The notes: generated by a model not told the origin, from the sequence alone. Counted from the stretch's first letter, positions 7,556 to 40,360 are shown. The stretch: 45,241 nt of DNA from Flavobacteriaceae bacterium (GCA_024763365.1 JANTFO010000006.1:1-45241); one strand, 5' to 3'. Numbers and translations: made by a program.

Positions 7556-8809
7556 ATGGCATTAAACGTTTTTTCTGAAATAGCTACTTTAAAAAAAGTA
7601 GTTGTCCATAGGCCGGATGAAGGATTATCCAGAATATCACCCAAAAAAGCTGAGGAATTGCTTTTTGATGACATTATTCATTTGCCTTTAATGCAACATG
7701 AACATGAGATTTTTATTGATGTTTTGAAACTTTTTGTAGGTGAAAAAAATGTGATAGATACAGAAATAATGTTGGAAGAATCTTTAGATTATTCACAAAT
7801 AAACCGCGAAAAGCTCATTAATGATATCATTGTTTTTGAAGAACTTCCTTCCAGGGTAAAACCCATGATGATGGAGATGAACACTAAAAGATTAACCGAA
7901 TTACTCATCACCGGTTACTGCGAAAAGGAAGATGCATATCTTTTTGATGCCATCCCCAATTTTATTTTTACAAGGGACATTGCAGTAGTCATCAAGGACT
8001 ATATTTTGATTACCAAGGCAGATAAAGAAGCAAGGCACAGAGAAAATATTTTAGCTCGATACATCATCAATACCCATCCGATGTTTTTAGAGACGAGAAA
8101 ACAAAAGAAAATAATTGACTTGAACAATGTCGACTTATTTCCACCTTCAAGAAAAGGAAAACCAGTTTCCATGGAAGGTGGAGATGTGATGATGATACAC
8201 AATGACTATTTATTAATTGGGCATAGTGAAAGAACTTCTCAACATGCTATTAATTTATTGAAAGATTACCTTTTTGAAAGAGATATCATTGAAAATGTGG
8301 TAGAAATTGAAATACCCAATGAGCGTAATTATATGCATATAGATACGGTTTTCACTCAAATAAATGAGAATGATATGGTAGTATTCAAACCCATTATTTA
8401 CGATGGGGTAGGTTCTATGGTACGTGTATATCGAAAGTCCGGAGAAAAAAAGGATTATTTATCTGTAAAGGAATTGTTTTTACAGGAAATAAACCCTGAC
8501 ATGCAATTTATTTTTGGTGGAAAGGGCATGTATCCTTATCAAGAGCGAGAGCAATGGACAGACGCTTGTAATTTAGTGGCTGTTAAGCCGGGTGTAGCTT
8601 TGATTTATGATAGGAATCCAAAAACCGAAGAAGCCCTACAAGAAGCAGGATATAAAATTTTACCAGCAGCAGTACTTCTTGAAAAAGCCAAAGAAAAATC
8701 ATTTGACATTCAAAAAATCGAAAAAACTATTATCACTTTACCTTCGACAGAACTTTCCAGGGGTAGAGGAGGCTCACATTGTATGACTTGTCCGTTGGTA
8801 AGAGTTTAA
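7556..8809 (+). CDS. arcA: Arginine deiminase
   Basis: VVVHRPDEGLSRISP, FTRDIAVV, EGGDVMMI, HIDTVFTQ, catalytic-Cys region RGRGGSHCMTCPLVR. Confidence 0.9.
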   Translation: MALNVFSEIATLKKVVVHRPDEGLSRISPKKAEELLFDDIIHLPLMQHEHEIFIDVLKLFVGEKNVIDTEIMLEESLDYSQINREKLINDIIVFEELPSRVKPMMMEMNTKRLTELLITGYCEKEDAYLFDAIPNFIFTRDIAVVIKDYILITKADKEARHRENILARYIINTHPMFLETRKQKKIIDLNNVDLFPPSRKGKPVSMEGGDVMMIHNDYLLIGHSERTSQHAINLLKDYLFERDIIENVVEIEIPNERNYMHIDTVFTQINENDMVVFKPIIYDGVGSMVRVYRKSGEKKDYLSVKELFLQEINPDMQFIFGGKGMYPYQEREQWTDACNLVAVKPGVALIYDRNPKTEEALQEAGYKILPAAVLLEKAKEKSFDIQKIEKTIITLPSTELSRGRGGSHCMTCPLVRV

Positions 8810-14305: not shown

Positions 14306-14379
14306 GGGGCATTAGCTCAGTTGGCTAGAGCGCTACGCTGGCAGCGTAGAGGCCATCGGTTCGAATCCGATATGCTCCA
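14306..14379 (+). tRNA. tRNA-Ala (anticodon GGC)
   Basis: Cloverleaf by eye: acceptor GGGGCAT/ATGCTCC, D arm GCTC..GAGC, anticodon arm CTACG-CTGGCAG-CGTAG, T arm ATCGG-TTCGAAT-CCGAT. Confidence 0.96.
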
Positions 14380-14435
14380 CCTTCGCTCGCCGAAGCTCCG
14401 AACATAGTGAGGAGCGAAGGCGAGCATTCTTTTTT
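14380..14435 (+). terminator. Candidate tRNA terminator: hairpin CCTTCGCTC/GAGCGAAGG followed by T-run
   Basis: 9-bp inverted repeat 14380-14388/14412-14420, T6 at 14430-14435. Confidence 0.5.
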
Positions 14436-14941: not shown

Positions 14942-15113
14942 TTTACTCATAAGCATCCTCATGCACCATTTTAATGGCTCGGCCGCTGGGCTCGTTTTGG
15001 TTTTTAAAACTTTCATCCCATTCTAATGCACGAGGTGTAGAACAAGCTATGGAAGCTAGTGAAGGTACACATAGTGCGGCAGCATTGGACGGGAAATGTT
15101 TTTCAAAGATGCT
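14942..15113 (-). pseudogene. asnB 3'-end remnant (last ~56 codons), direct repeat of 24811-24982
   Basis: Translates to SIFEKHFPSNAAALCVPSLASIACSTPRALEWDESFKNQNEPSGRAIKMVHEDAYE*, differing by one residue from the AsnB C-terminus; no upstream asnB sequence. Confidence 0.93.
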
Positions 15114-16221
15114 TAGCAATAAAATCACCAATTAGTTTTGATAGATATGTATGAGGATTATTTATTGATTCATTCAAACTAGGTGCTAGTGAAGATAGGC
15201 ATCCAAGATATTTTAAATTTTTCTTATTTAAATTACTATATTCTATTTCTGAATGTCCTGTAAAAACAGCTAGTTTCGTAGTTGTATTTTCAATTGATTT
15301 TAATATCTCTCCAATTACTTTGCCCTGAAAAGATGTTTTATCAAATTTTCCTTCCCCGGTAATTATCCAATCGGCTTTTTGAATTTGTTTGTCCCATTTA
15401 GCTAATTTCATAATGTATTTAGCACCTTTTTCAATTTTTATCTTTTTTAGAACACATAAACCAGCAATTATTCCTCCCGCAGCACCACTCCCTTCGATAT
15501 GTTGTGGATTTATTTTATATTTATCCTCAATAATGTTTGCCCAATTTTTTAAGCCTTTGTCTAATTCGATTATTTCTTCATCTGTAGCCCCTTTTTGTTT
15601 GGCATAGGAAAAAGCAGCTCCATTTGGTCCGTACATCTCATTTTTAACATCACTTAGAATAATAAATTGAATAGAAAAAACTTTAGGATTTACATGTTCT
15701 TGACTTAGGGATACAATTTTAGACAGGTTTTCTCCAATTGGCTCTAATTCATTTTTTTTTTCATCAAAAAATTTGTACCCAAAAGCTTGTAAAATGCCTA
15801 TTCCTCCATCGTTTGTAGCACTTCCTCCAAGTCCTAAGTAAATTGTTTTGGCTCCATTTTCAATAGCGTCCATTATTAGCTGTCCGGTTCCAAGTGAAGT
15901 TGTTTTTTTGCAATTTAATTCATCTTTTTTTATTAATCGCATCCCGGATGCTTCGGCCATTTCAATAAATGCCTTTTCTTTTCCAAGTAAATAAGTTGCT
16001 TTGGTTGGATAAAAAAGAGGTCCAGTGACCTTGACACGTCTCTTTTTAACATTCCAAATTTTTGATAAGATCTGTAATGTGCCGTCTCCTCCATCAGCTA
16101 AGGGAATAGAAATAATTTCAATTTTTTGATCAAAGTCTAGTATTTGTTTTTTAACGATTTTACTAAACTCTTCACCGTTTAGACTTCCCTTAAATTTATC
16201 GGGTGCTATTATTATTTTCAT
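15103..16221 (-). CDS. Glycerate kinase
   Basis: MKIIIAPDKFKGSLNGEEF, PLADGGDGTL, MAEASGMRL, GLGGSATNDGGIG, GAAGGI; glycerate kinase (GarK/GlxK) family. Confidence 0.93.
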   Translation of the reverse strand: MKIIIAPDKFKGSLNGEEFSKIVKKQILDFDQKIEIISIPLADGGDGTLQILSKIWNVKKRRVKVTGPLFYPTKATYLLGKEKAFIEMAEASGMRLIKKDELNCKKTTSLGTGQLIMDAIENGAKTIYLGLGGSATNDGGIGILQAFGYKFFDEKKNELEPIGENLSKIVSLSQEHVNPKVFSIQFIILSDVKNEMYGPNGAAFSYAKQKGATDEEIIELDKGLKNWANIIEDKYKINPQHIEGSGAAGGIIAGLCVLKKIKIEKGAKYIMKLAKWDKQIQKADWIITGEGKFDKTSFQGKVIGEILKSIENTTTKLAVFTGHSEIEYSNLNKKNLKYLGCLSSLAPSLNESINNPHTYLSKLIGDFIAKHL

Positions 16222-16223
16222 TA

Positions 16224-17924
16224 TTAATCGTGTTCATTGTACCATTTAAAAGAATAAGCTGATAATTCCCAAATATTTTCATTTTTAATTGAAACATTTG
16301 AAAGAAGGTTGTTTTTTACTTTTGCTTTTGCTTTACATTTCTGAACGGTGTCACTAAAATTAAAAATTGCCCAAAGAGAAGATTTTTTATATGTTCGATG
16401 TATGATCCATAAATTACCATTATTTTCAATGAAGTATTCGGCTTTGCCAAACGGATGAAATGCTCTATGTTTTATTCTTCCCTCAATTATTTTTTTGTAT
16501 TGTGTAAAGATTAAATATCTGATAGATTTTTCATTAGACAATTCATTTAATAAGGTGTCGAAATTTAATTTTTCTCTATTTATTCTTCTCTTAATACCTG
16601 ATTTTTTCACCCCTTCCAGGTCATTTTCAGACCCCAATAAAGAATGTATATAAATACCGGGGACTCCCGGCATACTTAGCATAACTGCTTGGGTTAGTAA
16701 AAACCGATTGACACGAGTTTGGGTGTCAGTAGTAGATGAACTCAATAAATTAAAATAGTTACAATTAAGCTCATAAGGAGATTGACTTCCGTCAGGATTG
16801 TTTTTATAGGACACAAAGCCATTGTTGTCTTTGCTTTGTTGAACTAATTCATTAATTTCATTTGGCGTAAGTATGTCTTCTAATGGCCGAACGCCTACGC
16901 CATCATGGCTGGCGGTGAAGTTAAAAAAACAAACTTTATTGCTCGGCAAATTCACAGAGGAGGCAAATTCATGAAGGTTGCTTACATCTTGTTTTTTTAC
17001 GCTATATATTAATAATGGTGATAAGCTAAAATTGTAAATCATATCGGCTTCATCAGTACCATTTCCAAAATAAGAAATATTCTCTTGATGAGGTACATTT
17101 GTTTCAGTAATCAACACTAAATCAGGGTCTAACGTGGTAAGAATACTTTTGTATATTCTTATGATTTCATGTGTTTGTGGTAAATGAATACAAGAGGTGC
17201 CTATCTTTTTCCATAAAAAAGCAATGGCATCTAAGCGTATTAATTTGCTTCCTTGCTGCATATAAAAAAGCAATACATCAAGCACAGCTAAAAACACTTT
17301 AGGGCTAGCAAAATTTATATCTATTTGATCTGCGCTAAAGGTGCTCCAAACATGTTTTTTATTGTTATCCTTATCGGTAAAAGGGGTGAGTAAGGGTAAA
17401 GCTCTAGGTCGAACCACATCACTTAGGTCAGCATTCGGGTCTACCTCTATGAAGTAATCTTGAAAATCTGTATCGTTTTGTAAGTATTTTTGAAACCAAT
17501 CTGACTTTTGTGATATATGATTGATTACTGCATCAAACATTAAATTGGCATGTTTGTTTAAATCTTGAATATTGTCCCAAGTTCCTAATTCTGGGTTTAC
17601 TTTTTTATAATCTATTACGGAAAAACCATCATCTGAAGTATAAGGGTAAAAGGGTAATATATGTATAGTATTAATAAATTCACTGAATTTGTGAGTGTAC
17701 AAATTTTTAAGACTCTCCAGTGGTAGTTCATCGGGTTTCTTTATTGAGTCTCCATAGCTTATTAATATAATATCTTTCTCTGAAAGTGAATGCGCTTTTT
17801 TACTAATCTTTGGTTTATAAAAATTTACCAATTTCACGATTTCATCCCATATCTTTTCAATATCAGATGGGTAAACCTTTTTTAGGCTATTTAGAAGGCT
17901 TGATTTTTTTTGCTGTAAAGACAT
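16224..17924 (-). CDS. GH13_18 phosphorylase, probable glucosylglycerate phosphorylase (YcjM-like)
   Basis: IHILPFYPYTSDDGFSVIDY, FDAVINHISQKSDWF, DLSDVVRPRALPLLTPF, IRLDAIAFLWKKIGTSCIHLPQTHEII, NNPDGSQSPYELN; resembles E. coli YcjM more than sucrose phosphorylase as I recall them. Confidence 0.82.
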   Translation of the reverse strand: MSLQQKKSSLLNSLKKVYPSDIEKIWDEIVKLVNFYKPKISKKAHSLSEKDIILISYGDSIKKPDELPLESLKNLYTHKFSEFINTIHILPFYPYTSDDGFSVIDYKKVNPELGTWDNIQDLNKHANLMFDAVINHISQKSDWFQKYLQNDTDFQDYFIEVDPNADLSDVVRPRALPLLTPFTDKDNNKKHVWSTFSADQIDINFASPKVFLAVLDVLLFYMQQGSKLIRLDAIAFLWKKIGTSCIHLPQTHEIIRIYKSILTTLDPDLVLITETNVPHQENISYFGNGTDEADMIYNFSLSPLLIYSVKKQDVSNLHEFASSVNLPSNKVCFFNFTASHDGVGVRPLEDILTPNEINELVQQSKDNNGFVSYKNNPDGSQSPYELNCNYFNLLSSSTTDTQTRVNRFLLTQAVMLSMPGVPGIYIHSLLGSENDLEGVKKSGIKRRINREKLNFDTLLNELSNEKSIRYLIFTQYKKIIEGRIKHRAFHPFGKAEYFIENNGNLWIIHRTYKKSSLWAIFNFSDTVQKCKAKAKVKNNLLSNVSIKNENIWELSAYSFKWYNEHD

Positions 17925-19565
17925 TTAGCTTAAAATTATAGGTATTAAATAACTAAAAACAAGAATAATAACAAAAAATGCTAACAGGATATATACTTCC
18001 TTAATCATAAAATCTGATAACTTTAATTTGTAAGAAACGGGAGCTTTTTTAATAGATATATTTTTTGTGAAATACGAAACTATATAAGCAACAATTAATG
18101 TGATGATTACCCCGGTAAAATTGAGCCATATCCAAAATATATCAATACCTATGTCAAAATGAAAAATATTTTGAATCGTTTTTGAAAACAATAAGTTTAT
18201 AATTACGGCAGTGATTATACCAGTATTCATGCCGATGTGATTTACTTTTTTTGAAAAAATAGCTAATAAAAAAGTAACTAATACAGGTCCGTAAAAAACG
18301 GAACCAATGGCATTGATTATTTCAATCACTGCACTATCACTTCCTCCAAAAAGAAAAGATGCAGAAATACATACGATTCCCCAAAATACAACAGCTATTT
18401 TGGAAATGTTCATATATTTTTTTTGATTTAATTTTTTTCCTCTATTAAAAAAGTCTTCAACCGAAACAGCAGAAAGAGAATTTACCGTTGAGCTTAATGA
18501 AGACATAGCCGCTGAGAGAATACCAATCATTAATATACCAATGAGTCCATGAGGCAGATATTTAACTATAAATACCGGAATCATCAAATCGGCTTTTATA
18601 CCATTGGCCGCGTATTCATCTGGAAAGTAGCGTTGTGTAGTAAGGGCAATATCGTTTAAAAAATCCGGAGACAGCATTACAATTCCTCCAATGATTAGCC
18701 CCATGATACTATAAACTAGAACAACAGGAAAACGCAATAACCCATTTGCCAAGAGTAATTTACGTATGGTAGATTCATTTTTGGCAGAGAGCATTCTTTG
18801 AGCTTGAGTTTGATCGGTTCCATAATAAGAAGCATACAAAAAGAAACCACCAACAATCATAGGAATTAATCCGTACTCTTCTCCTTCTCCTATACCCAAA
18901 TTATAGTCGATAACTTTTAATCTTTCTGCCGGGAAACCTTGTGCAAAACCACCAAGATTGTCAAATAATTGGTAGCCATAATACAAACTGATTATCAAGC
19001 CGGTAAAAAGTATGATCATTTGGATCGTATCTCCCCATACAACTGCTTTCATGCCTCCTTGCCAAGAGTATATAATGGTAATCACACTGATGATAAGTAT
19101 AGTATAAATATATTCTATGTCTAAAACAGCCTGAAGAATTATAGCAATAGTATATACCATTACGCCTGTACCTAAAGCTCTACTAATTTGAAAAACGATG
19201 CTTAGTATAAGCCTAGTAGACGCGCTAAACCGATTTTCAACATATTCGTAGATACTAATAATACCCGATCTAAATAGTGGCGGAATTATGACTAACATTA
19301 TAAAAACCATGGCTAAGGGCACCGCTAATTCAAATGTGAGCCATTTCATACCTCCCCCCAATTTTAACCCGACAAAAGCAGGAGCCGATATAAAACTTAT
19401 GGCAGAAAGTTGTGTAGCCATTGTTGATAAACTCAAAGGAAACCATCCCATATTTTTACCCCCCAGAAAGTAATCTTTAGAATTTTTATTTTTTTTAAAA
19501 AAGTAGCCTAATCCTAAAAAGAGAATAATATATATACCAACAATTATGTAGTCTAATGTATTCAT
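17925..19565 (-). CDS. Sodium:solute symporter (SSS family)
   Basis: DYIIVGIYIILFLGLGYFFKKNKNSKDYFLGGKNMGWFPLSLSTMATQLSAISFISAPAF; ~13 TM segments. Confidence 0.92.
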   Translation of the reverse strand: MNTLDYIIVGIYIILFLGLGYFFKKNKNSKDYFLGGKNMGWFPLSLSTMATQLSAISFISAPAFVGLKLGGGMKWLTFELAVPLAMVFIMLVIIPPLFRSGIISIYEYVENRFSASTRLILSIVFQISRALGTGVMVYTIAIILQAVLDIEYIYTILIISVITIIYSWQGGMKAVVWGDTIQMIILFTGLIISLYYGYQLFDNLGGFAQGFPAERLKVIDYNLGIGEGEEYGLIPMIVGGFFLYASYYGTDQTQAQRMLSAKNESTIRKLLLANGLLRFPVVLVYSIMGLIIGGIVMLSPDFLNDIALTTQRYFPDEYAANGIKADLMIPVFIVKYLPHGLIGILMIGILSAAMSSLSSTVNSLSAVSVEDFFNRGKKLNQKKYMNISKIAVVFWGIVCISASFLFGGSDSAVIEIINAIGSVFYGPVLVTFLLAIFSKKVNHIGMNTGIITAVIINLLFSKTIQNIFHFDIGIDIFWIWLNFTGVIITLIVAYIVSYFTKNISIKKAPVSYKLKLSDFMIKEVYILLAFFVIILVFSYLIPIILS

Positions 19566-19571
19566 TTCCGT

Positions 19572-20888
19572 TTATTTTTGATTTATTAAATCTATGATTA
19601 ATGCAGCAGTCCATGAAAATTTTTTGCCCCCATAACCAGCAGTACATTTTGTGTTGTCATATTTTGACTTTCGGGGGTCAAAATATTCATAAAAACCGGC
19701 TTTTTTAACTATTTCAAGGCTATCTTGTCTTATTATTTCTGCTTCTTGGCGGTATTCGTAAGCTTTTAAACCTTTATAGAGCATCCAATTTAAATTTATC
19801 CAAACAGGACCACGCCAATATCGCTGCGCTTCAAAAGCATCATCTGATGGATCATAGGACGGTAAATTGTAATAATCATTGGGGGTATAATTGACAAATA
19901 AATTTTTCTTAATATTTTCTGCTCTTTCTTTTTCTGGTATTTTAGCAAATAATGGGGCAAAAGAAGAAGAGGTCAACAATTCAATTTGTTTTTGAGATCT
20001 TAGATCGTAATGAACATAAGCCTGGAGTTTTTTGTTGTATAATTTTTTATTCATATTTTGAATAGCTTTTTCATTCCATTTTTCAAGAATTTTAATTTTA
20101 TCAAAACCTCTGTTAAGTTTTTTGTATAAATAAATTAGACTTTGATTAGATTTTATAAGTAGGCTGTTGAATAAGGGGTCTTGAATTAAAAAAGGGCTAT
20201 GTAAGAATATTTTTTCATCATCATAGTTAAATTTTTTGGCAATATCTATGATATGTAAATAGTAGTTATATTCTTCTTTTAAGGGTCTTTGTTCTTGACT
20301 TACATTTTGAGTATCTCTACGTGTAAAATTATAACTCTTTACGTTTTTTATGTTCTTAAAAACAGAGTCCCAAACAGGCGAATTATCTGTGCCTGATTCC
20401 CAATTATGGTATATATAGACCAGCCCTTCATGTAAGGGGTCTCGTTTGGTGTAAAAGTAATGATGATTGAGATAAACCTGATCAATGTATTTATCAATAA
20501 AACTCAACATGTCTTTTTTATCCTCTACAATTTTTAAAAGTTCTTGCATTACAAAACCAATGATCGGTGGTTGTGTGAGTGTAGAGCTTGGGACATCTAG
20601 ATTTGCATCTTTATGCAGACTGGCATTATAAAAATCAGGTCCGGGAAAATAACTTTTTGACAGCTTGTGAAATATTATATGTGGTAAAAACCCATTTTTC
20701 CACTGAGCTTTTAATAAGCTTTTTATCTCTAATTGTGCTCTTTTTGGGTTGAAGTAAGCCCAGCCTATAGCTATAAACCCTGAATCCCATAGCCATTGAT
20801 AAGGATATAAGTTTTCTGAAGGTACTGTATAGAAACCTTTAGAGTTATTTTTCAAAACTTCTAAAGATTGTGAGCTAAGACTTTCCAT
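19572..20888 (-). CDS. GH63 / MGH1-like glycoside hydrolase (glucosyl-/mannosylglycerate hydrolase-like)
   Basis: NLYPYQWLWDSGFIAIGWA, NGFLPHIIFH, YIYHNWESGTDNSPVWD, YWRGPVWINLNWMLYKGLKAY, GGKKFSWTAALIIDL; no signal peptide, so predicted cytoplasmic. Confidence 0.78.
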   Translation of the reverse strand: MESLSSQSLEVLKNNSKGFYTVPSENLYPYQWLWDSGFIAIGWAYFNPKRAQLEIKSLLKAQWKNGFLPHIIFHKLSKSYFPGPDFYNASLHKDANLDVPSSTLTQPPIIGFVMQELLKIVEDKKDMLSFIDKYIDQVYLNHHYFYTKRDPLHEGLVYIYHNWESGTDNSPVWDSVFKNIKNVKSYNFTRRDTQNVSQEQRPLKEEYNYYLHIIDIAKKFNYDDEKIFLHSPFLIQDPLFNSLLIKSNQSLIYLYKKLNRGFDKIKILEKWNEKAIQNMNKKLYNKKLQAYVHYDLRSQKQIELLTSSSFAPLFAKIPEKERAENIKKNLFVNYTPNDYYNLPSYDPSDDAFEAQRYWRGPVWINLNWMLYKGLKAYEYRQEAEIIRQDSLEIVKKAGFYEYFDPRKSKYDNTKCTAGYGGKKFSWTAALIIDLINQK

Positions 20889-20968
20889 ATAATTAATTTA
20901 AAAAAAGCTGTCTAAAAAACAATTGAATCTTTTTAGACAGCCTTAATCAAACAAAAAATTAATTCAAA

Positions 20969-23662
20969 TTAAAAATTAAAAGTAGCTGTTATAAACATTC
21001 TACGAGGTAAAATGGGTCGACCAAAGAAAAAGGCACCTTCAGTTTGACCTACATCTCTTGGATTACCTTCTGTAACACCTTCAGCATCTAATAAGTTAAA
21101 AACTGAAGCACCAATTCTCATCGTGTTATCAGAGTCATTATTAAAACCAAAAGAATAACCCACTCCTAATCTTACAATAGATATAGGATCTAATTCAACA
21201 ATATTATTATCCGCAGCAAATTTCTTTCCGGTATGATTTAATGAAGCATTCGCATCAAATTGGTTATTGTCAAAGTATAAGCCTAAGTTAGTCATAAATT
21301 TAGGTTGTCTTGCCAATTCATTTCCTTCATTAGCAGAAACAACACCTCCGTTTATCAAATCTTCGTCAGTGTTTTTGGTTATTTCATGGTTTTGATAGGT
21401 TGCCCCTCCTGTGAAGTTTAAATTATCTGTAATACTATAATTCCAATTGGCTTCTACACCAATTGTAGCCGTATTTTGTTCTGAACGAGTTTGGTCAACT
21501 AACTGACCATTGGTTATCGCCTGAGTAATTTTAATTCTATCTTTAAGCGTAACATAATAAGCTGCTAAAGAACCAGATAATTTTTCTTTACCTAATTTAG
21601 CTCCTGCTTCAAACTGTAAGATTTTTTCTGAATCGTATTTACTACCTGTTACATCGTTAGCAATAGGAGAAAAACCTCTTAATTGGGGGAAGAAGTAACC
21701 TTTAGAAAAGTTTGCATAAAGATTTAAATCAGTATTTAATTCATAAAGACCAGCAAGAGAAACTGCCCAATCGTTTGCCTCAACATTTGCTCGTACAAAA
21801 CTACCATCGGCAAATTTTACATCTGATAATTCTGGTGTTAGTTCTGCATTACTATATACTGTCTCTGAAGCAATACCTCCATTATTAAATCTTCCTTTTG
21901 TGTTTTCGTACCTAAACCCAACGTCAAAGCGCCATCTATTCAAAACCATTTCGTCCGTGATAAATAAGGCAGATCTATTTTGCTCAAGATATTTATTAGA
22001 AGTCATTCCTATCCTGTTATAAAGCCCCCCTTCAGAATAAATTACATTAGCTCCTAAGCCATCGGTGTAATTTAAATTTATCAATTGAGGATCATTATTA
22101 AATTCAGAGAGAACTCTGTATTGATAATTTATATCTTCTGCTTCTGTTCTTGCAAGAAAAGTACCTAAAGTGATATTATGCGAATTACCACTGGAAGTTT
22201 CTATTCTTTTTGTAAGTGATGCTTCACCCGAATAATCTGTCATAGGTCTTAGTCTGTCAATATGTAAGTTGTTAACGACTAGTGTGTTACCTGACAATTG
22301 TTGGTCTGAACCTAAAAAAGTTGCAGAATAACCTTGGTTATTTTCATCTAAAAAGTTAACATAATCGTCTAATGTTAAAGGATTACTTCCTTCACCATCA
22401 GGTCCTACATTGCCATTTCCACCAATATATAGGGCAAAATTATGTTGATATTTAGCGTATTTAACTTTAGCCTTCATTTTCAAATCCTCAGCAAGGTCAT
22501 ATTTAAAATCGGACATTAAATATCCACCCCCTGTATGAACACCATCTTCAATTGGGCTTATATAACTACCTCCCGGTGTTTTGAACGATGTGTTTGCTAA
22601 TTGCGACGATAAAAGTTGGTAAACTTCTTCACCATCATTTCCTGCTATTCTAGTCCTTGTTCCACCTTCAAGAGGTAAGGGCATGAAAAATTGGGCATTA
22701 TCATTTATTAATTGTCCATGAAGGGTAAAAGAGCCCTTGTCAAATTTTTGTTTAATATTACCTCTAAACTGTATTCCTTTAGTTGGCAATCCTGTAACAA
22801 TAGGTCCTTCATCATATCTGGCAAAGCCGGTAAATGCGTAGTAAGTATTAGAATTCTCTCCACCAAGTTTTCCTCCTGTATAAAAATCAGTTTTTAATCT
22901 ACCTTTTTCTCCCCATTCTAAATTGATAATATTACCGGGGTTTGCATCTCCTGTTTTACTAGTATAGTTTATGATGCCGGCAACAGATCCTGCTCCATAA
23001 AGAACAGATGCGCCACCTCGAACAAATTCAACTCCTTTCATCCCTATATCGGGTCTGGCATAAACATCATGTGCAGAAGAATTTAAGCCAAATGTGCTCA
23101 TTAAAGGCATACCATCATATTGTAATGGGTTAAATACATATTGACCACCAGATGGTAATCCCCTTACAAAGACATTAGAGGCAGTTTCACCTCCACCACC
23201 TTCGGCAGTTATACCGGGAACACTTCTAATAATATCCGCTTGGCTATTAGGACTAATTTTTGTTATAGAAGATTGTTTTACAGAACTAATAGACATAGGC
23301 ACATTTTTTTGAGACCTAAAAGTTGCAGATGAAGTTAAAACCACCTCGTCTAAAGTATTACTACTTTCTGCCAAAACAATATCTAACATTATTTTTTCTC
23401 CACTTAAATCTATACTTTGACTAAAAGTCTTGTAACCAACGTATGAAACTTCTAAGTCTTGTTGACCTGAAAGATTTGTGCTGAAAACAAATTGACCATC
23501 GAAATCGGTAACCGAGCCTTGATCTGAGTTCTTAAGTACAATATTGGCCCCCGGAACAGGCATCCCATTTTGGTTTTTAACTGTACCAGATATTTCAGTT
23601 TGTGACCATAGTACACTAAAGTAAAAGAAACTTAAACTTAATAGTAATGCTTTTTTCATCAT
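20969..23662 (-). CDS. TonB-dependent receptor with CarboxypepD_reg-like N-terminal domain (FecA-like)
   Basis: Signal peptide MMKKALLLSLSFFYFSVLWSQ; GTVKNQNGMPVPGANIVLKNSDQGSVTDFDGQF; plug RSVPGITAEGGGG..FVRGLPSGG; C-terminal ...ITATFNF. Start at 23662 preferred over ORF-track 23749. Confidence 0.92.
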   Translation of the reverse strand: MMKKALLLSLSFFYFSVLWSQTEISGTVKNQNGMPVPGANIVLKNSDQGSVTDFDGQFVFSTNLSGQQDLEVSYVGYKTFSQSIDLSGEKIMLDIVLAESSNTLDEVVLTSSATFRSQKNVPMSISSVKQSSITKISPNSQADIIRSVPGITAEGGGGETASNVFVRGLPSGGQYVFNPLQYDGMPLMSTFGLNSSAHDVYARPDIGMKGVEFVRGGASVLYGAGSVAGIINYTSKTGDANPGNIINLEWGEKGRLKTDFYTGGKLGGENSNTYYAFTGFARYDEGPIVTGLPTKGIQFRGNIKQKFDKGSFTLHGQLINDNAQFFMPLPLEGGTRTRIAGNDGEEVYQLLSSQLANTSFKTPGGSYISPIEDGVHTGGGYLMSDFKYDLAEDLKMKAKVKYAKYQHNFALYIGGNGNVGPDGEGSNPLTLDDYVNFLDENNQGYSATFLGSDQQLSGNTLVVNNLHIDRLRPMTDYSGEASLTKRIETSSGNSHNITLGTFLARTEAEDINYQYRVLSEFNNDPQLINLNYTDGLGANVIYSEGGLYNRIGMTSNKYLEQNRSALFITDEMVLNRWRFDVGFRYENTKGRFNNGGIASETVYSNAELTPELSDVKFADGSFVRANVEANDWAVSLAGLYELNTDLNLYANFSKGYFFPQLRGFSPIANDVTGSKYDSEKILQFEAGAKLGKEKLSGSLAAYYVTLKDRIKITQAITNGQLVDQTRSEQNTATIGVEANWNYSITDNLNFTGGATYQNHEITKNTDEDLINGGVVSANEGNELARQPKFMTNLGLYFDNNQFDANASLNHTGKKFAADNNIVELDPISIVRLGVGYSFGFNNDSDNTMRIGASVFNLLDAEGVTEGNPRDVGQTEGAFFFGRPILPRRMFITATFNF

Positions 23663-23691
23663 AATATTATTTGATTTAAAATTATTTCCAA

Positions 23692-23699
23692 CAAATGTA
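23692..23699 (-). promoter_or_regulatory. Candidate -7 element TACATTTG for the TonB receptor operon
   Basis: CAAATGTA on + strand, i.e. TANNTTTG on -, 30 bp upstream of the predicted start. Confidence 0.35.
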
Positions 23700-23743
23700 T
23701 TTGACAAAAACTTGATTTTGAGAGAAAAAAGGAAAAAAACGCA

Positions 23744-23759
23744 ACGCAAACGTTTGCGT
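23744..23759. promoter_or_regulatory. LacI-family operator candidate ACGCAAACGTTTGCGT
   Basis: Perfect 16-bp palindrome with central CG in the lacI/TonB divergent intergenic region. Confidence 0.85.
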
Positions 23760-23776
23760 AAATCTAAACTTAATGT

Positions 23777-23784
23777 TAACTTTG
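23777..23784 (+). promoter_or_regulatory. -7 element TAACTTTG for the lacI-type gene (paired -33 TTTG at 23753-23756)
   Basis: Exact TANNTTTG with 20 nt spacing to a TTTG lying inside the palindromic operator. Confidence 0.55.
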
Positions 23785-23791
23785 TGAGTTT

Positions 23792-24808
23792 ATGAGTAAA
23801 ATAACAAATTTAAAAGATATAGCTGAATCTCTAAATTTATCCATATCGACGGTTTCAAGAGTAATTAATGATAAACCGGGGATAAGTAAAAAAACTAAAA
23901 AAAGGGTTTTAGAAAAAGCCAAGCAACTCAATTACACCACTAACCTCATGGCGAGGGCTTTTCGTATTTCTAAGTCAAACATCATTGGTGTAATTGTGCC
24001 TACCGTAAGTTTATATTTTACTTCTATAGTTTTAAAAGGAATTTTATCTGAAGCTGAAAAAAGGTCTTATCGTGTAATGATTACAGAATCAAATAACGAT
24101 GTAAAAAAAGAAGAAGAAATGTTTAATGCGCTTTTACAGTTTGGCGTTGATGGGATTTTAATATCATTGTCAAAAAATTCAACAGATACGGATTATTTAT
24201 TTAAGGCAAGCTCTAATATACCTATGGTTATGTTTGACAAAGTGAGCAGTATTATTCCTTGTACACGCATTGTAATTAACGAAGAAGAGGCAGCATATAA
24301 TGCAGTAAAGCATTTGATAAGCATAGGAAAAAGGAAAATTGCTATTCTAAAAGAAAGTAAATATTCGTATACTTCTGAGAAAAGATATAAAGGCTATTTA
24401 AAGGCTTTAGCAGATAATAATATTGAGTTAGAGCATGATTATGTAAAAAGTTGTCTTGATATTAATCTGGAAAGAGGAAAAGAATTAACCAAAGAACTTC
24501 TAAATTTAAAAAATTTACCCGATGCTATATTTGCCATTACTGATAGTGCTGCAGTAGGAGCCATTCAGATTATTAAAAAATCCGGTTTGCGAATTCCTGA
24601 AGATATTGCGGTTGTGGGTTTTAGCAATTCATCATTAGCTGAAGTAATTGAACCTAATTTAACAACGATTGATCAACCCGGCTTACAAATAGGTCGTACC
24701 GCAGTCAATTTTTTAATTGATAAAATAAATAAATCAGACTCAGAAATTGACAATAAAACGGTTGAGATAAAAACAAAGTTAATTATAAGAAACTCTACGG
24801 TAAAATAA
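23792..24808 (+). CDS. LacI family DNA-binding transcriptional regulator
   Basis: NLKDIAESLNLSISTVSRVINDKPGISKKTKKRVLEKAKQLNY; periplasmic-binding-like effector domain. Confidence 0.95.
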   Translation: MSKITNLKDIAESLNLSISTVSRVINDKPGISKKTKKRVLEKAKQLNYTTNLMARAFRISKSNIIGVIVPTVSLYFTSIVLKGILSEAEKRSYRVMITESNNDVKKEEEMFNALLQFGVDGILISLSKNSTDTDYLFKASSNIPMVMFDKVSSIIPCTRIVINEEEAAYNAVKHLISIGKRKIAILKESKYSYTSEKRYKGYLKALADNNIELEHDYVKSCLDINLERGKELTKELLNLKNLPDAIFAITDSAAVGAIQIIKKSGLRIPEDIAVVGFSNSSLAEVIEPNLTTIDQPGLQIGRTAVNFLIDKINKSDSEIDNKTVEIKTKLIIRNSTVK

Positions 24809-24811
24809 CTT

Positions 24812-26479
24812 TTACTCGTAAGCATCCTCATGCACCATTTTAATAGCGCGTCCACTAGGTTCGTTTTGGTTTTTAAAACTTTCATCCCATTCTAATGCAC
24901 GAGGTGTAGAACAAGCTATGGAAGCTAGTGAAGGCACACATAGTGCTGCAGCATTTGAAGGAAAATGCTCTTCAAAGATACTACGGTAGTAATATTCTTC
25001 TTTGGTTTTTGGGGTTTGTAAGGGAAAGCGATAAGCTGCCTGCTCCATCATTTCATCAGTTACTTTTTCCAGGACCAATTCTTTTAAACTGTCGATCCAA
25101 CTATAACCCACTCCGTCAGAGAATTGTTCCTTTTGTCGCCAGGCTACTTCTTTTGGCAGGTAGTCCTCAAAGGTTTCACGGAGAATGTGTTTTTCAATTT
25201 TTCCGTTGCCACACATTTTGTCTTTTGGGTTTAAACGCATAGCTACATCCATAAATTCTTTATCCAAAAATGGGACACGTCCTTCGATACCCCAGGCGGC
25301 AAGCGATTTATTGGCTCGTAGGCAATCGTATAAGTGGAGTTTTTCCAGTTTTTCCACTGTTTCTTCATGAAATTCTTTAGGATTGGGGGCTTTATGAAAG
25401 TATAAATAACCACCAAAAATCTCGTCGGCACCTTCTCCTGACAGCACCATTTTGATGCCCATGGATTTGATTACTCTTGCTAATAAATACATCGGAGTAG
25501 CTGCTCGTACGGTGGTGATGTCATAAGTTTCCAGATAATAGATTACATCACGAACAGCGTCTAAGCCTTGTTGAACAGTGAAATATACTTCATGATGTAC
25601 TGTGCCAATTTCTTCAGCCACTTTTTTAGAAGCAGCCAAATCAGGTGAAGCTTCCAAACCTATAGCGAAAGAATGTAGCTGAGGATACCAGGCTCGCTGG
25701 GTGTCATGTGATTCCACGCGCATTTCGGCATATTTTTTGGCAATGGCAGCGGTGAGTGAGGAATCTAAGCCACCTGAAAGTAAAACACCATAGGGGACAT
25801 CGGACATCAATTGTCTATGAACGGCATCTTCTAAGGCTTTGCGTAAGGCTTTTTTATCTGACTTGTTGTCCTTTACGTTTTTATACTCCATCCAATCTCG
25901 CACATACCATCTTTTAGGTTTAGGATTGTCTGAAGTTAGGTAATGTCCCGGTCGGAAAACTTCAATTTTTTTACAAGTGCCCTCCAGGGCTTTTAGTTCT
26001 GAAGCCACATAGTATTGTCCCATTTCGTCCCAGCCGTGGTAGAGGGGAATAATACCCATATGGTCACGGGCTACCATATATTTTCCGGTATTTTGGTCGA
26101 ATAGAACAAAGGCAAAAATACCATTTAGTTTATCCAAAAAATCAGCACCATACTTTTCATATAAAGGAATAATCACCTCGCAATCTGATTCGGTTTTGAA
26201 GGGGTATTTACCTTCAAATTCTTTTCGTAATTCCAGGTGGTTATATATTTCCCCATTGACGGCAAGCGATACGCTTTTGTCTTCGTTAAACAAAGGTTGT
26301 TGCCCGGATGCAGGATCAATAATTGCCAGACGCTCATGAGCTAAAATGGCTTGCGGAGTGGTGTGAATACCACTCCAGTCCGGGCCGCGATGACGTAATT
26401 TTTTGGACAATTCCAATACTTTGTGCCGTTGCTCCTCTGCCGGTTTTTTAAGGTCAAATACGCCTACAATTCCACACAT
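24812..26479 (-). CDS. asnB: Asparagine synthase B (glutamine-hydrolysing)
   Basis: MCGIVGVFD, LRHRGPDWSG, VNGEIYNH, YGVLLSGGLDSSL, VLSGEGADEIFGGYLYFH. Confidence 0.97.
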   Translation of the reverse strand: MCGIVGVFDLKKPAEEQRHKVLELSKKLRHRGPDWSGIHTTPQAILAHERLAIIDPASGQQPLFNEDKSVSLAVNGEIYNHLELRKEFEGKYPFKTESDCEVIIPLYEKYGADFLDKLNGIFAFVLFDQNTGKYMVARDHMGIIPLYHGWDEMGQYYVASELKALEGTCKKIEVFRPGHYLTSDNPKPKRWYVRDWMEYKNVKDNKSDKKALRKALEDAVHRQLMSDVPYGVLLSGGLDSSLTAAIAKKYAEMRVESHDTQRAWYPQLHSFAIGLEASPDLAASKKVAEEIGTVHHEVYFTVQQGLDAVRDVIYYLETYDITTVRAATPMYLLARVIKSMGIKMVLSGEGADEIFGGYLYFHKAPNPKEFHEETVEKLEKLHLYDCLRANKSLAAWGIEGRVPFLDKEFMDVAMRLNPKDKMCGNGKIEKHILRETFEDYLPKEVAWRQKEQFSDGVGYSWIDSLKELVLEKVTDEMMEQAAYRFPLQTPKTKEEYYYRSIFEEHFPSNAAALCVPSLASIACSTPRALEWDESFKNQNEPSGRAIKMVHEDAYE

Positions 26480-27141: not shown

Positions 27142-28323
27142 TCATCTCTTTATCAATTTTTGTTGTATTATTCCATTTTTAAAAAACATTTTTAGTATAT
27201 ATATTCCATCAACTAATTCTGATACTTGATATTTTTCTTGATTTCCACAAGTTTTAATCAATTCTCCTGTGATAGAATATATTTTTATTTGTTTTACCTG
27301 TTGTTCCTTCTCAATATAGAAAGTTTCAAAAACCGGATTTGGATAAACTATTAAGGTATCTGTTAAACCGTAATCAACGATACCAATAGCATCGCATTCT
27401 GCTTGTGTTTCAACAAATGTACTTCCCGGATCAACATTCAACCAATTATCTGTACTGTATTGCGCATCATCCACAAAAATACATGTTAAGTTTGGGTTCC
27501 CTGTGGAGACAAAGTCAGTTACAATTGTGTTGTTTCCGTTTCTAAAATCAAGGCTTGTTAAATAGTTATTATTACACCTAAAACGCCATATACCAGAATT
27601 ATTTGTCAGGTCTAAAACAGATATTTGGTTCCAAGCACACTCAAACCTTCCTAAAATTGTATTTTGACTTATATCAATATCTTGGATTTCATTATCATTA
27701 ACCTCAAGATGTTCTAATAGTGTATTTTGATTTACATCTATTGCGGGTATATTGTTAGCAGAACATTTTAAAGTTTCCAACAACGGGTTTTGTGTGATAA
27801 TTAGTTCAGAAATACTATTTGATTCACATTTTAAAGTTTCCAACAATGGATTTTGGGACACATCTAGTGCTAATAGACCATTATTTCCACATTCTAGAAA
27901 AACAAGATTTGGATTATTCTGAACCGAAAGAGTCAATAAATCATTACCATAACAATCTAAATATTCTAAACTGGTATTATTGCTTAAATCCAGATCTGTC
28001 AATTCATTCCACCTACAATCCAAATATGTAAGAGCAGTATTCTGACTCAGGTCCATAAAGCTTATGAGACACAAATTTACATCTAAGTATTCTAAACTAC
28101 TAAATCCTTCAATCCCTTCTAAAGTATATATTACATTTGTTAGGTGTAAGTTAGTAATGATATCAATATCAGAGGTTAAAACCTGCCCATCTAGAATTCC
28201 TTCGGAATCTATTCCAAGGTCTATGAGATTTTGTTCAAATCCACTATCCGGAATAGCTGTATATTGGGCTTGTAAAAATCCAATATTTGCTATAAAAAGA
28301 AAAAGAAAAAGAAATTTATTCAT
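27142..28323 (-). CDS. Leucine-rich-repeat secreted protein with T9SS type A sorting domain
   Basis: Signal peptide; ~21-residue repeats (LDVSQNPLLETLKCESNSISEL...); C-terminal VYPNPVFETFYIE...DGIYILKMFFKNGIIQQKLIKR. Confidence 0.88.
   Translation of the reverse strand: MNKFLFLFLFIANIGFLQAQYTAIPDSGFEQNLIDLGIDSEGILDGQVLTSDIDIITNLHLTNVIYTLEGIEGFSSLEYLDVNLCLISFMDLSQNTALTYLDCRWNELTDLDLSNNTSLEYLDCYGNDLLTLSVQNNPNLVFLECGNNGLLALDVSQNPLLETLKCESNSISELIITQNPLLETLKCSANNIPAIDVNQNTLLEHLEVNDNEIQDIDISQNTILGRFECAWNQISVLDLTNNSGIWRFRCNNNYLTSLDFRNGNNTIVTDFVSTGNPNLTCIFVDDAQYSTDNWLNVDPGSTFVETQAECDAIGIVDYGLTDTLIVYPNPVFETFYIEKEQQVKQIKIYSITGELIKTCGNQEKYQVSELVDGIYILKMFFKNGIIQQKLIKR
27763..27846. repeat. 21-bp exact direct repeat at 63-bp spacing inside the LRR gene
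   Basis: ACATTTTAAAGTTTCCAACAA at 27763 and 27826. Confidence 0.85.
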
Positions 28324-29824
28324 TATTTTTTATTATTATATTTTGCTCTTGGCTACCATCGTTATATTGCTTGTCAATTTTATATAAACCATTAATTAAG
28401 TCTGGAATTAAATTTGAATCATTTATTTGTAAGGAATCTTTTGGATAAATAGTGACATTTGTGTTTATAACGCCATCATTGAACTTTGTAATACTTCCAC
28501 TTGATGCACTTTTATTCCAATTATTCCAACATTTATGCGGTATTGAATTGTCTGATTGATTTATTCTAATTGCTGAATGGTTTGGGTGTTTAACTCTACC
28601 TGTTAAGTCTGTTTTTGGCTGTGAGTGTACAATTATAGTAGTATAGGAAAATGTCTGACCATAAGGAGTTGGTGATACATACTGCTCGTTACTGCCATCT
28701 CCACACTCTACAAAATAATAATCAAAACCTGGTTGAAAATGTGGTGGATTTGCAAGATACTCTAGATAATTACCACTAGTAAAATAAACTCCTTCATAGG
28801 GCTCATACAGTGAAGCAATAGTAGTCAATTTTTGTTGCAACACTCCAAAAATATCATTTTCAATGGCTTCTCGCATCCTTACACCTTGGCCATCTGAAAA
28901 ATGGTCTCGTAAACCATCTAGATCTAAATAGTCAAGAAAATTATTAATTTCGTCCACTAGATCTACATACATTTCTCCAACTTCATCCACTATTCTGGGG
29001 TCTGCTACAAAATATTTGACATGGGGATTGCTTGAGTAATCTACGCAGGCATGTTGTTTATAGGACCAGAATGCAGCACTTGTATCAATAACAAAATCAC
29101 CTGCTTCGTCTGCATTATAATATTGATTGTTTGGATCTCTGGTGACGTTTTCGGGGCTTGTTGGATACGTGTCTGGATAAACTGGAGTTGGGTCAAACTT
29201 TGGAATTGCCAATCTGGGTAGAGGATTATCATCACATAGAGGCAAGTTATCATAAATAAAATCTGTTGAAGGAAGGGTTCCGTCGAAAATATGCAAAAGT
29301 GATAACGCATGACCCATTTCATGGATAATAGATGTATTTGTTTCACTCTTGAAATTAGTATATTTACAGAAGACATCTGAGTACTGAAAATAGGCAGCAT
29401 TACCTATTGGCGCAACAAAAAGATTAATACTTTCATCATCATAGTTTCCTGTGTCTATTACTTCGTCTCGAAGTTCGGTCCAAGTTGGACCTACAACCAC
29501 AAATGCATCATCATCAAGACACTTTATTCCGTTATACTTAAAAAAGATATTAAACTGATTAAACTCAATATTCAATCTAGCAACGGCTCTCATAAAGTCG
29601 TCCTCTGTTACTCCAAGTATGTTTTCACCATTACTATTTCTAGTTAGATGAAACAAAAGTCTTAACACATATGGGTCGTCAGCCGAAAAGTCAGATTTGA
29701 CCGTTCTAGAAAAATTGGCCGTATTGTACATTTCAGGATGTGGCACAAAAAAGCATCCATCGGCATCGTTTTGTCCAAACATTGATAAGGATAATACAAA
29801 TAAGATAAATAATAATTTTCTCAC
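28316..29824 (-). CDS. Secreted zinc metalloprotease (metzincin, HExxHxxxxxH), probable T9SS cargo
   Basis: Signal peptide MRKLLFILFVLSLSMFGQ; SIIHEMGHALSLLHIF; C-terminal NGLYKIDKQYNDGSQEQNIIIKNNE resembles a T9SS type A end. Confidence 0.8.
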   Translation of the reverse strand: MRKLLFILFVLSLSMFGQNDADGCFFVPHPEMYNTANFSRTVKSDFSADDPYVLRLLFHLTRNSNGENILGVTEDDFMRAVARLNIEFNQFNIFFKYNGIKCLDDDAFVVVGPTWTELRDEVIDTGNYDDESINLFVAPIGNAAYFQYSDVFCKYTNFKSETNTSIIHEMGHALSLLHIFDGTLPSTDFIYDNLPLCDDNPLPRLAIPKFDPTPVYPDTYPTSPENVTRDPNNQYYNADEAGDFVIDTSAAFWSYKQHACVDYSSNPHVKYFVADPRIVDEVGEMYVDLVDEINNFLDYLDLDGLRDHFSDGQGVRMREAIENDIFGVLQQKLTTIASLYEPYEGVYFTSGNYLEYLANPPHFQPGFDYYFVECGDGSNEQYVSPTPYGQTFSYTTIIVHSQPKTDLTGRVKHPNHSAIRINQSDNSIPHKCWNNWNKSASSGSITKFNDGVINTNVTIYPKDSLQINDSNLIPDLINGLYKIDKQYNDGSQEQNIIIKNNE

Positions 29825-39844: not shown

Positions 39845-40360
39845 TTAGTTGTCATAAAACAACTTTTTAAGTTCGGTAGCTTCTTCAGGTTTCATACGGC
39901 CGGAGAGTACCAAGCTAAGTTGTTTTCTCCGAAGCGCTGCATCATAACGCTGTTTTTCTAATTCGGTTTCCGGTTGTAGTGCTGGAACACGGATGGGATT
40001 ACCTTCTTTATCAACAGCGACAAAAGTATAAATACCTTCATTGACCTTTACGCGTTTTTTCTCCTCCATACATTCACGCCATACGTCTGCATAAATTTCC
40101 ATGGAACTACCAAAAGCCCTGGACACTTTGGCTTCAATGACCAACACACTACCTACAGGCACAGATTTGTTAAAAGCAACATGGTTGACAGAAGCGGTAA
40201 CCACGATATTTTCCGCATGGCGCTGTGCAGCAATACCACAAGCCCTATCCATACGCGCTAAGAGTTCTCCCCCAAAGAGACTGTCCAAAGGATTGGTCTC
40301 GCCGGGCAAAACATAATCGGTTAAAATCGTTAAGGATTCGGAAGGGGTTTTGGCTTTCAT
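39845..40360 (-). CDS. Acyl-CoA thioesterase (hotdog fold)
   Basis: LDSLFGGELLARMDRACGIAAQRHAENIVVTASVNHVAFNKSVPVGSVLVIEAKV. Confidence 0.88.
   Translation of the reverse strand: MKAKTPSESLTILTDYVLPGETNPLDSLFGGELLARMDRACGIAAQRHAENIVVTASVNHVAFNKSVPVGSVLVIEAKVSRAFGSSMEIYADVWRECMEEKKRVKVNEGIYTFVAVDKEGNPIRVPALQPETELEKQRYDAALRRKQLSLVLSGRMKPEEATELKKLFYDN

Follow-up and report, generated by a model that had tools for sequence, protein, structure and literature searches.

Introduction

Strict glucosylglycerate phosphorylases (GGaPs) can be told from GH13_18 enzymes of other specificities by a (T/S)ETN motif and a Glu in loop A (Franceus and Desmet, PMC7178133), and why they occur in many organisms that are not thought to accumulate glucosylglycerate was posed in the same paper as an open question. 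Glucosylglycerate itself is described, as cited in PMC11631117, as a common compatible solute of marine cyanobacteria in nitrogen-poor waters (Klahn 2010). In family GH63, the mycobacterial enzyme MhGgH binds glucosylglycerate as well as mannosylglycerate and leaves glucosylglycerol unhydrolysed (PMC6608630), and digeneaside genes have been reported from Zobellia galactanivorans and Maribacter dokdonensis (Barbeyron et al. 2016, as cited in PMC8072126). Here we describe an operon with members of both enzyme families on a 45,241-nucleotide stretch of Flavobacteriaceae bacterium DNA (GCA_024763365.1, JANTFO010000006.1:1-45241), which we call the window. What is new in it is a phosphorylase joined to a widespread hydrolase frame, a rare two-enzyme form of the operon.

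Most likely, the operon lets the flavobacterium take up and consume sugar-glycerate osmoprotectants released by cyanobacteria and algae, and we put at about 0.72 the probability that it was acquired, is under LacI control and scavenges 2-O-alpha-glycosyl-D-glycerates that other organisms release. Under this model, a SusD-less TonB receptor would admit the solute through the outer membrane, and an SSS symporter would import it with Na+; the GH63 enzyme would split mannosylglycerate, and perhaps also glucosylglycerate, by hydrolysis, leaving glycerate and the free sugar; a shared glycerate kinase would feed the glycerate into lower glycolysis; and the solute or a breakdown product would release LacI from a palindrome at 23744-23759. 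The components are as follows, with the evidence for each gene in brackets:

15103-16221, minus strand, glycerate kinase, PF02595/TIGR00045 (open reading frame, Pfam, NCBIfam)
16224-17924, minus strand, predicted GH13_18 glucosylglycerate phosphorylase, 566 amino acids (open reading frame, Pfam/NCBIfam, motifs, tree)
17925-19565, minus strand, SSS-family sodium/solute symporter, predicted inner-membrane import (open reading frame, Pfam/NCBIfam)
19572-20888, minus strand, GH63 MGH1-like hydrolase of the mannosyl-/glucosylglycerate hydrolase type (open reading frame, Pfam/NCBIfam, residues)
20969-23749, minus strand, SusD-less TonB-dependent receptor, predicted outer-membrane uptake (open reading frame, Pfam/NCBIfam)
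23744-23759, between the LacI and receptor genes, perfect 16-bp palindrome ACGCAAACGTTTGCGT, candidate LacI operator
23792-24808, plus strand, divergent LacI-family repressor, position conserved in relatives (open reading frame, Pfam/NCBIfam)

The six genes had been listed in this order by a first-pass annotation of the same DNA, and open reading frames and Pfam/NCBIfam families agree with it; families, order and spacing all hold (the gaps from glycerate kinase to receptor are 2, 0, 6 and 80 nucleotides), and the call that probably needs revision is the receptor start.

The phosphorylase

Over 513 amino acids, the GH13_18 protein is 45% identical to Escherichia coli YcjM. Its acid/base loop reads TETN (residues 273-276, window 17097-17108), and SPYE in loop A (residues 382-385, window 16770-16781) places a Glu where other enzymes have Gln. 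Within these motifs, N276 and E385 are the counterparts of M. silvanus Asn275 and Glu383. Both marks are common to all 22 aligned GGaP-like sequences and YcjM, and GH13 outgroups from relatives have NLDLYQ or SYYQ in loop A. In a tree with few outgroups and with YcjM as its sole characterised member, the GGaP sequences separate from the outgroups with support of 1.00; the window protein groups with YcjM and clusters with those of other hydrolase-plus-phosphorylase operons (support 0.91). Motifs and tree thereby support its identification as a glucosylglycerate phosphorylase (EC 2.4.1.352). A grouping with sucrose-type phosphorylases, which the first-pass annotation had named as damaging to its proposal, does not appear, TETN, SPYE and the position beside YcjM all pointing the other way; at sequence level, we reject sucrose or glucosylglycerol specificity on the strength of loop A, TETN and the tree. 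Across the family, the partners of this phosphorylase clade include a glycerate kinase, a GpgS-type glucosyl-3-phosphoglycerate synthase and an SSS symporter.

A conserved frame with exchangeable modules

Among the best 80 of 459 GH63 relatives from named genomes, 66 keep the TonB, GH63, SSS and glycerate kinase genes and the divergent LacI gene together and in that order, including members of Zobellia, Maribacter, Winogradskyella, Algibacter, Aquimarina and Flavobacterium; because the five-gene set recurs to this extent, the arrangement is not due to chance. In both this order and a shared operator, the window matches the flavobacterial glycosylglycerate (digeneaside-type) operon. Many hydrolase-only operons have a GNAT acetyltransferase gene between GH63 and SSS (e.g., L138:9316-9933 and L144:9425-10051).

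The two-enzyme form is far less common: in a sample of 400 Flavobacteriaceae genomes, about 58 had a GH63 of this kind, 10 had the phosphorylase, and 2 had both in one operon. Two-enzyme loci were found in the window, in L082, in L135 (a Eudoraea metagenome-assembled genome) and in L204 (a Bacteroidales metagenome-assembled genome), a count of at least four, as the searches sampled part of the known genomes. The phosphorylase also occurs in an SSS-GGaP-glycerate kinase cassette without hydrolase (L128-L130 and L134), with a divergent LacI gene in one of the four; these loci belong to other Flavobacteriaceae, and two lie near a gene the size of a monomeric isocitrate dehydrogenase and a TonB receptor/DUF4249 pair. 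L028 combines a GGaP of the same clade with a GpgS gene, a phosphatase of the MPGP type and a MOFRL glycerate kinase, evidently a set for synthesis and turnover, to which L131-L133 may be added on the strength of matching gene sizes and order.

The window symporter is 75-80% and the receptor 65-69% identical to those of hydrolase-only operons. Across these loci, hydrolase and phosphorylase behave as interchangeable modules of a single transporter-kinase-regulator frame, and since they replace or join each other there, the simplest reading is that the variants share a glycerate aglycone.

The hydrolase

The hydrolase matches MGH1-like_GH in Pfam (284 bits) and scores best against the Thermus mannosylglycerate hydrolase TtMgH (305 bits), followed by the mycobacterial glucosylglycerate hydrolase (215 bits). 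When aligned to the MhGgH residues given in PMC6608630, it keeps the catalytic pair (D168 and E401) and 12 substrate contacts (Y28, W32, W34, D35, Y80, Q106, W163, G166, R201, Y207, Y357 and W358), the glycerate contacts among them; Gln434 of MhGgH corresponds to K423, at a position that is variable in the family. Given the substrate range of MhGgH, a glycerate aglycone is a fairly firm prediction for this enzyme, and the sugar is not. Similarity to solved structures proved uninformative for telling mannosyl- from glucosylglycerate, with scores against TtMgH of 306 bits for Zobellia, 305 for the window and 298 for L082. Family, catalytic pair and contacts fit the earlier placing of this protein among the GH63/MGH1 enzymes, which include glucosyl/mannosylglycerate hydrolases, with the amendment that its substrate here may be mannosylglycerate rather than, or besides, glucosylglycerate. 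At matched symporter identity, the window hydrolase stands out as unusually diverged (54% versus 67 +/- 5%), which may reflect a changed or relaxed use; the identity of the glycerate kinase is also somewhat low, so this divergence is a hint at most.

Gene calls, localization and regulation

The glycerate kinase, of the 2- or 3-kinase type, matches Gly_kinase in Pfam (382 bits) and TIGR00045 (343 bits, cut-off 168). The GH13_18 protein combines a GH13 alpha-amylase domain with a sucrose-phosphorylase-like profile (Pfam, NCBIfam), the symporter has an SSF domain and passes TIGR00813 (201.7 bits, cut-off 184), the receptor consists of CarbopepD_reg_2, Plug and beta-barrel domains, and the regulator of LacI and Peripla_BP_3 domains. 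The receptor likely starts at ATG 23662 or 23659 rather than at TTG 23749, because a signal peptide, MMKKALLLSLSFFYFSVLWSQ, begins there and the LacI operator overlaps the TTG. Its identity as a SusC was rejected (TIGR04056, 97 bits against a cut-off of 368), as was a SusCD-type polysaccharide utilization locus, a Pfam/NCBIfam scan having found no SusD at the locus. Because a hydropathy scan found no signal peptide in the GH63 protein, the GH13_18 protein or the glycerate kinase, the glycoside is probably cleaved inside the cell.

Of 88 homologous regions, 56 have the operator core GCAAACGTTTGC unchanged and 75 have it with at most one mismatch, as against 1 of 1,760 shuffled control regions; the 88 are related loci, some of them duplicates of one genome, and their conservation partly reflects shared ancestry. 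A promoter scan did no better than shuffles, and a riboswitch search turned up only a tRNA-Ala.

Which sugar, and scavenged or recycled

The gene after the kinase encodes a mannose-6-phosphate isomerase in 12 distinct hydrolase-only loci, but in none of the two-enzyme loci (a weak contrast at n = 4), and digeneaside (mannosylglycerate) genes or use are reported for Zobellia and Maribacter, so far as PMC8072126 summarises them (see also PMC6298971); on these two grounds, we take the common frame to serve, probably, chiefly mannosylglycerate, and the form with the phosphorylase to have been widened to glucosylglycerate or directed at it. Glucosylglycerate, the solute first proposed, accordingly fits the phosphorylase and is probably too narrow for the phosphorylase-less frame, which is the common form. 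One could go further and regard the window operon as primarily one for mannosylglycerate, with the phosphorylase an accessory and glucosylglycerate not the main natural substrate: besides the isomerase pattern, the digeneaside reports and the prevalence of the phosphorylase-less frame, the GH63 enzyme is nearest to the Thermus mannosylglycerate hydrolase, and receptor (65-69%) and symporter (75-80%) are of the hydrolase-only type. We take this explanation seriously and yet think it unlikely, as the phosphorylase retains all glucosylglycerate marks and is joined to the frame in four diverse loci, none of which has the isomerase adjoining; SSS-GGaP-glycerate kinase cassettes exist without any hydrolase; and an alpha-glucosyl phosphorylase cannot release mannose. 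In the window's own genome, a mannose-6-phosphate isomerase gene is present on another contig.

Retention of both enzymes would be explained by sequential breakdown of mannosylglucosylglycerate, in which GH63 removes mannose and GGaP phosphorolyses the remaining glucosylglycerate before the glycerate kinase acts. A nitrogen-limited marine planctomycete is known to contain this osmolyte (PMC3694870), and a gene for a mannosylglucosylglycerate-synthase-like transferase lies directly before GH63 in L135 (6661-8004, 420 bits) and L204 (2276-3628, 407 bits; cut-off 640). Similar genes lie directly before GGaP in L101, L106, L110 and L118. However, the window and L082 are without the transferase, the genome (84% complete, which limits every genome-wide negative given here) has no mannosylglucosylglycerate synthase over the cut-off and at most a 29-bit partial match, and the conserved GH63 residues bind glycerate next to the cleaved sugar, which fits glycerate, not glucose, in that subsite; we find the sequential route quite improbable. 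The broader proposal, that hydrolase, phosphorylase or both serve as swappable cleavage modules and that the two-enzyme form is dedicated to a glucosylglycerate-containing osmolyte such as mannosylglucosylglycerate, strikes us as distinctly doubtful. Turnover of an internally made osmolyte, the evident role of the GGaP relative in L028 and, judging by gene sizes and order, of those in L131-L133, is very improbable here: a TonB receptor, a symporter and a divergent LacI point to uptake, no match to GpgS was found in this genome, making recycling of an own solute less likely than scavenging, and, as just noted, no mannosylglucosylglycerate synthase there exceeds the cut-off.

Some observations count against glycosylglycerate scavenging. 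Sequence does not reveal which sugar GH63, receptor and symporter prefer, and the support is at sequence level. At 306 bits, the GH63 protein stays below the 550-bit cut-off of the glucosylglycerate hydrolase equivalog NF047898. Searches of the genome returned neither a phosphoglucomutase nor a ROK kinase, a result that the genome's incompleteness makes uninterpretable; the phosphoglucomutase family includes the near-universal GlmM. On balance, GGaP motifs and tree, GH63 residues and the family-wide gene context favour glycosylglycerate scavenging, as the first-pass annotation had proposed for glucosylglycerate.

Probable acquisition and genomic setting

The operon is bracketed by a direct repeat, to the right of a tRNA gene:

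14306-14381, plus strand, tRNA-Ala(GGC), left edge of the variable region, kept beside a MATE gene in congeners
14942-15113, reading on the minus strand, left copy of a 172-nucleotide direct repeat, a remnant of the final 57 codons of an asnB gene
24811-24982, right copy of the repeat, formed by the 3' end of the intact asnB and 91% identical to its left counterpart
24812-26479, minus strand, intact asparagine synthase B gene (asnB) bordering the operon (Pfam/NCBIfam)

Thirteen of the 14 codon differences between the repeat copies are synonymous, so both copies were probably working genes while they diverged and were joined afterwards, as expected from recombination between two asnB alleles. 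None of six congeners was found to have the phosphorylase. Congener G005 has its homologue of the window gene at 39845 immediately after the MATE gene and tRNA-Ala(GGC), and so lacks the roughly 25 kb that lie between them in the window (14306-39845); this variable region is partly different in G001, where an AddB-like gene follows the tRNA. Because the operon (32.3% G+C versus about 35%) lies in a variable region after a tRNA-Ala and is bracketed by diverged asnB 3' ends, it was probably acquired horizontally, its loss in the congeners being the less simple explanation. The bordering asnB, about 50% identical to the congeners' asnB, which sits elsewhere, may have come along with the operon; in the loci compared from other species, no asnB adjoins it. 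Next to asnB, and inside the variable region, window 27142-29824 encodes a leucine-rich-repeat protein sorted by the type IX secretion system and a weak M43-like peptidase. An arginine deiminase-family gene (PF02274) at 7556-8809 has the same neighbours in congener G004.

Comparison with known systems

Together with its three sister loci and the SSS-GGaP-glycerate kinase cassettes, the window offers a testable answer to the question of why GGaP occurs where glucosylglycerate is not thought to accumulate: such organisms eat it. The module swap may also act as a genomic marker separating glucosylglycerate from mannosylglycerate consumers. Five Zobellia loci (L160, L167, L169, L185 and L198), which probably correspond to the published Zobellia galactanivorans digeneaside operon, have the divergent LacI gene and TonB-GH63-SSS-glycerate kinase order of the window, but lack the phosphorylase. 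With the E. coli ycjM-ycjW cluster, the window shares an orthologous-type GGaP (YcjM) and a LacI-type regulator, whereas that cluster has an ABC importer, a kojibiose phosphorylase and dehydrogenases, and neither a glycerate kinase nor a hydrolase. Operons for synthesis and turnover (GpgS, phosphatase and glycerate kinase, e.g., L028) have a phosphorylase from this clade, complete with the two motifs, but combine it with synthesis genes and a MOFRL-type glycerate kinase, and have no TonB receptor or SSS symporter. Lastly, the GH63 enzymes MhGgH and TtMgH have their fold family, catalytic residues and glycerate contacts in common with the window hydrolase; MhGgH, however, recycles its host's own solute after nitrogen starvation, whereas the window GH63 gene stands in an uptake operon.

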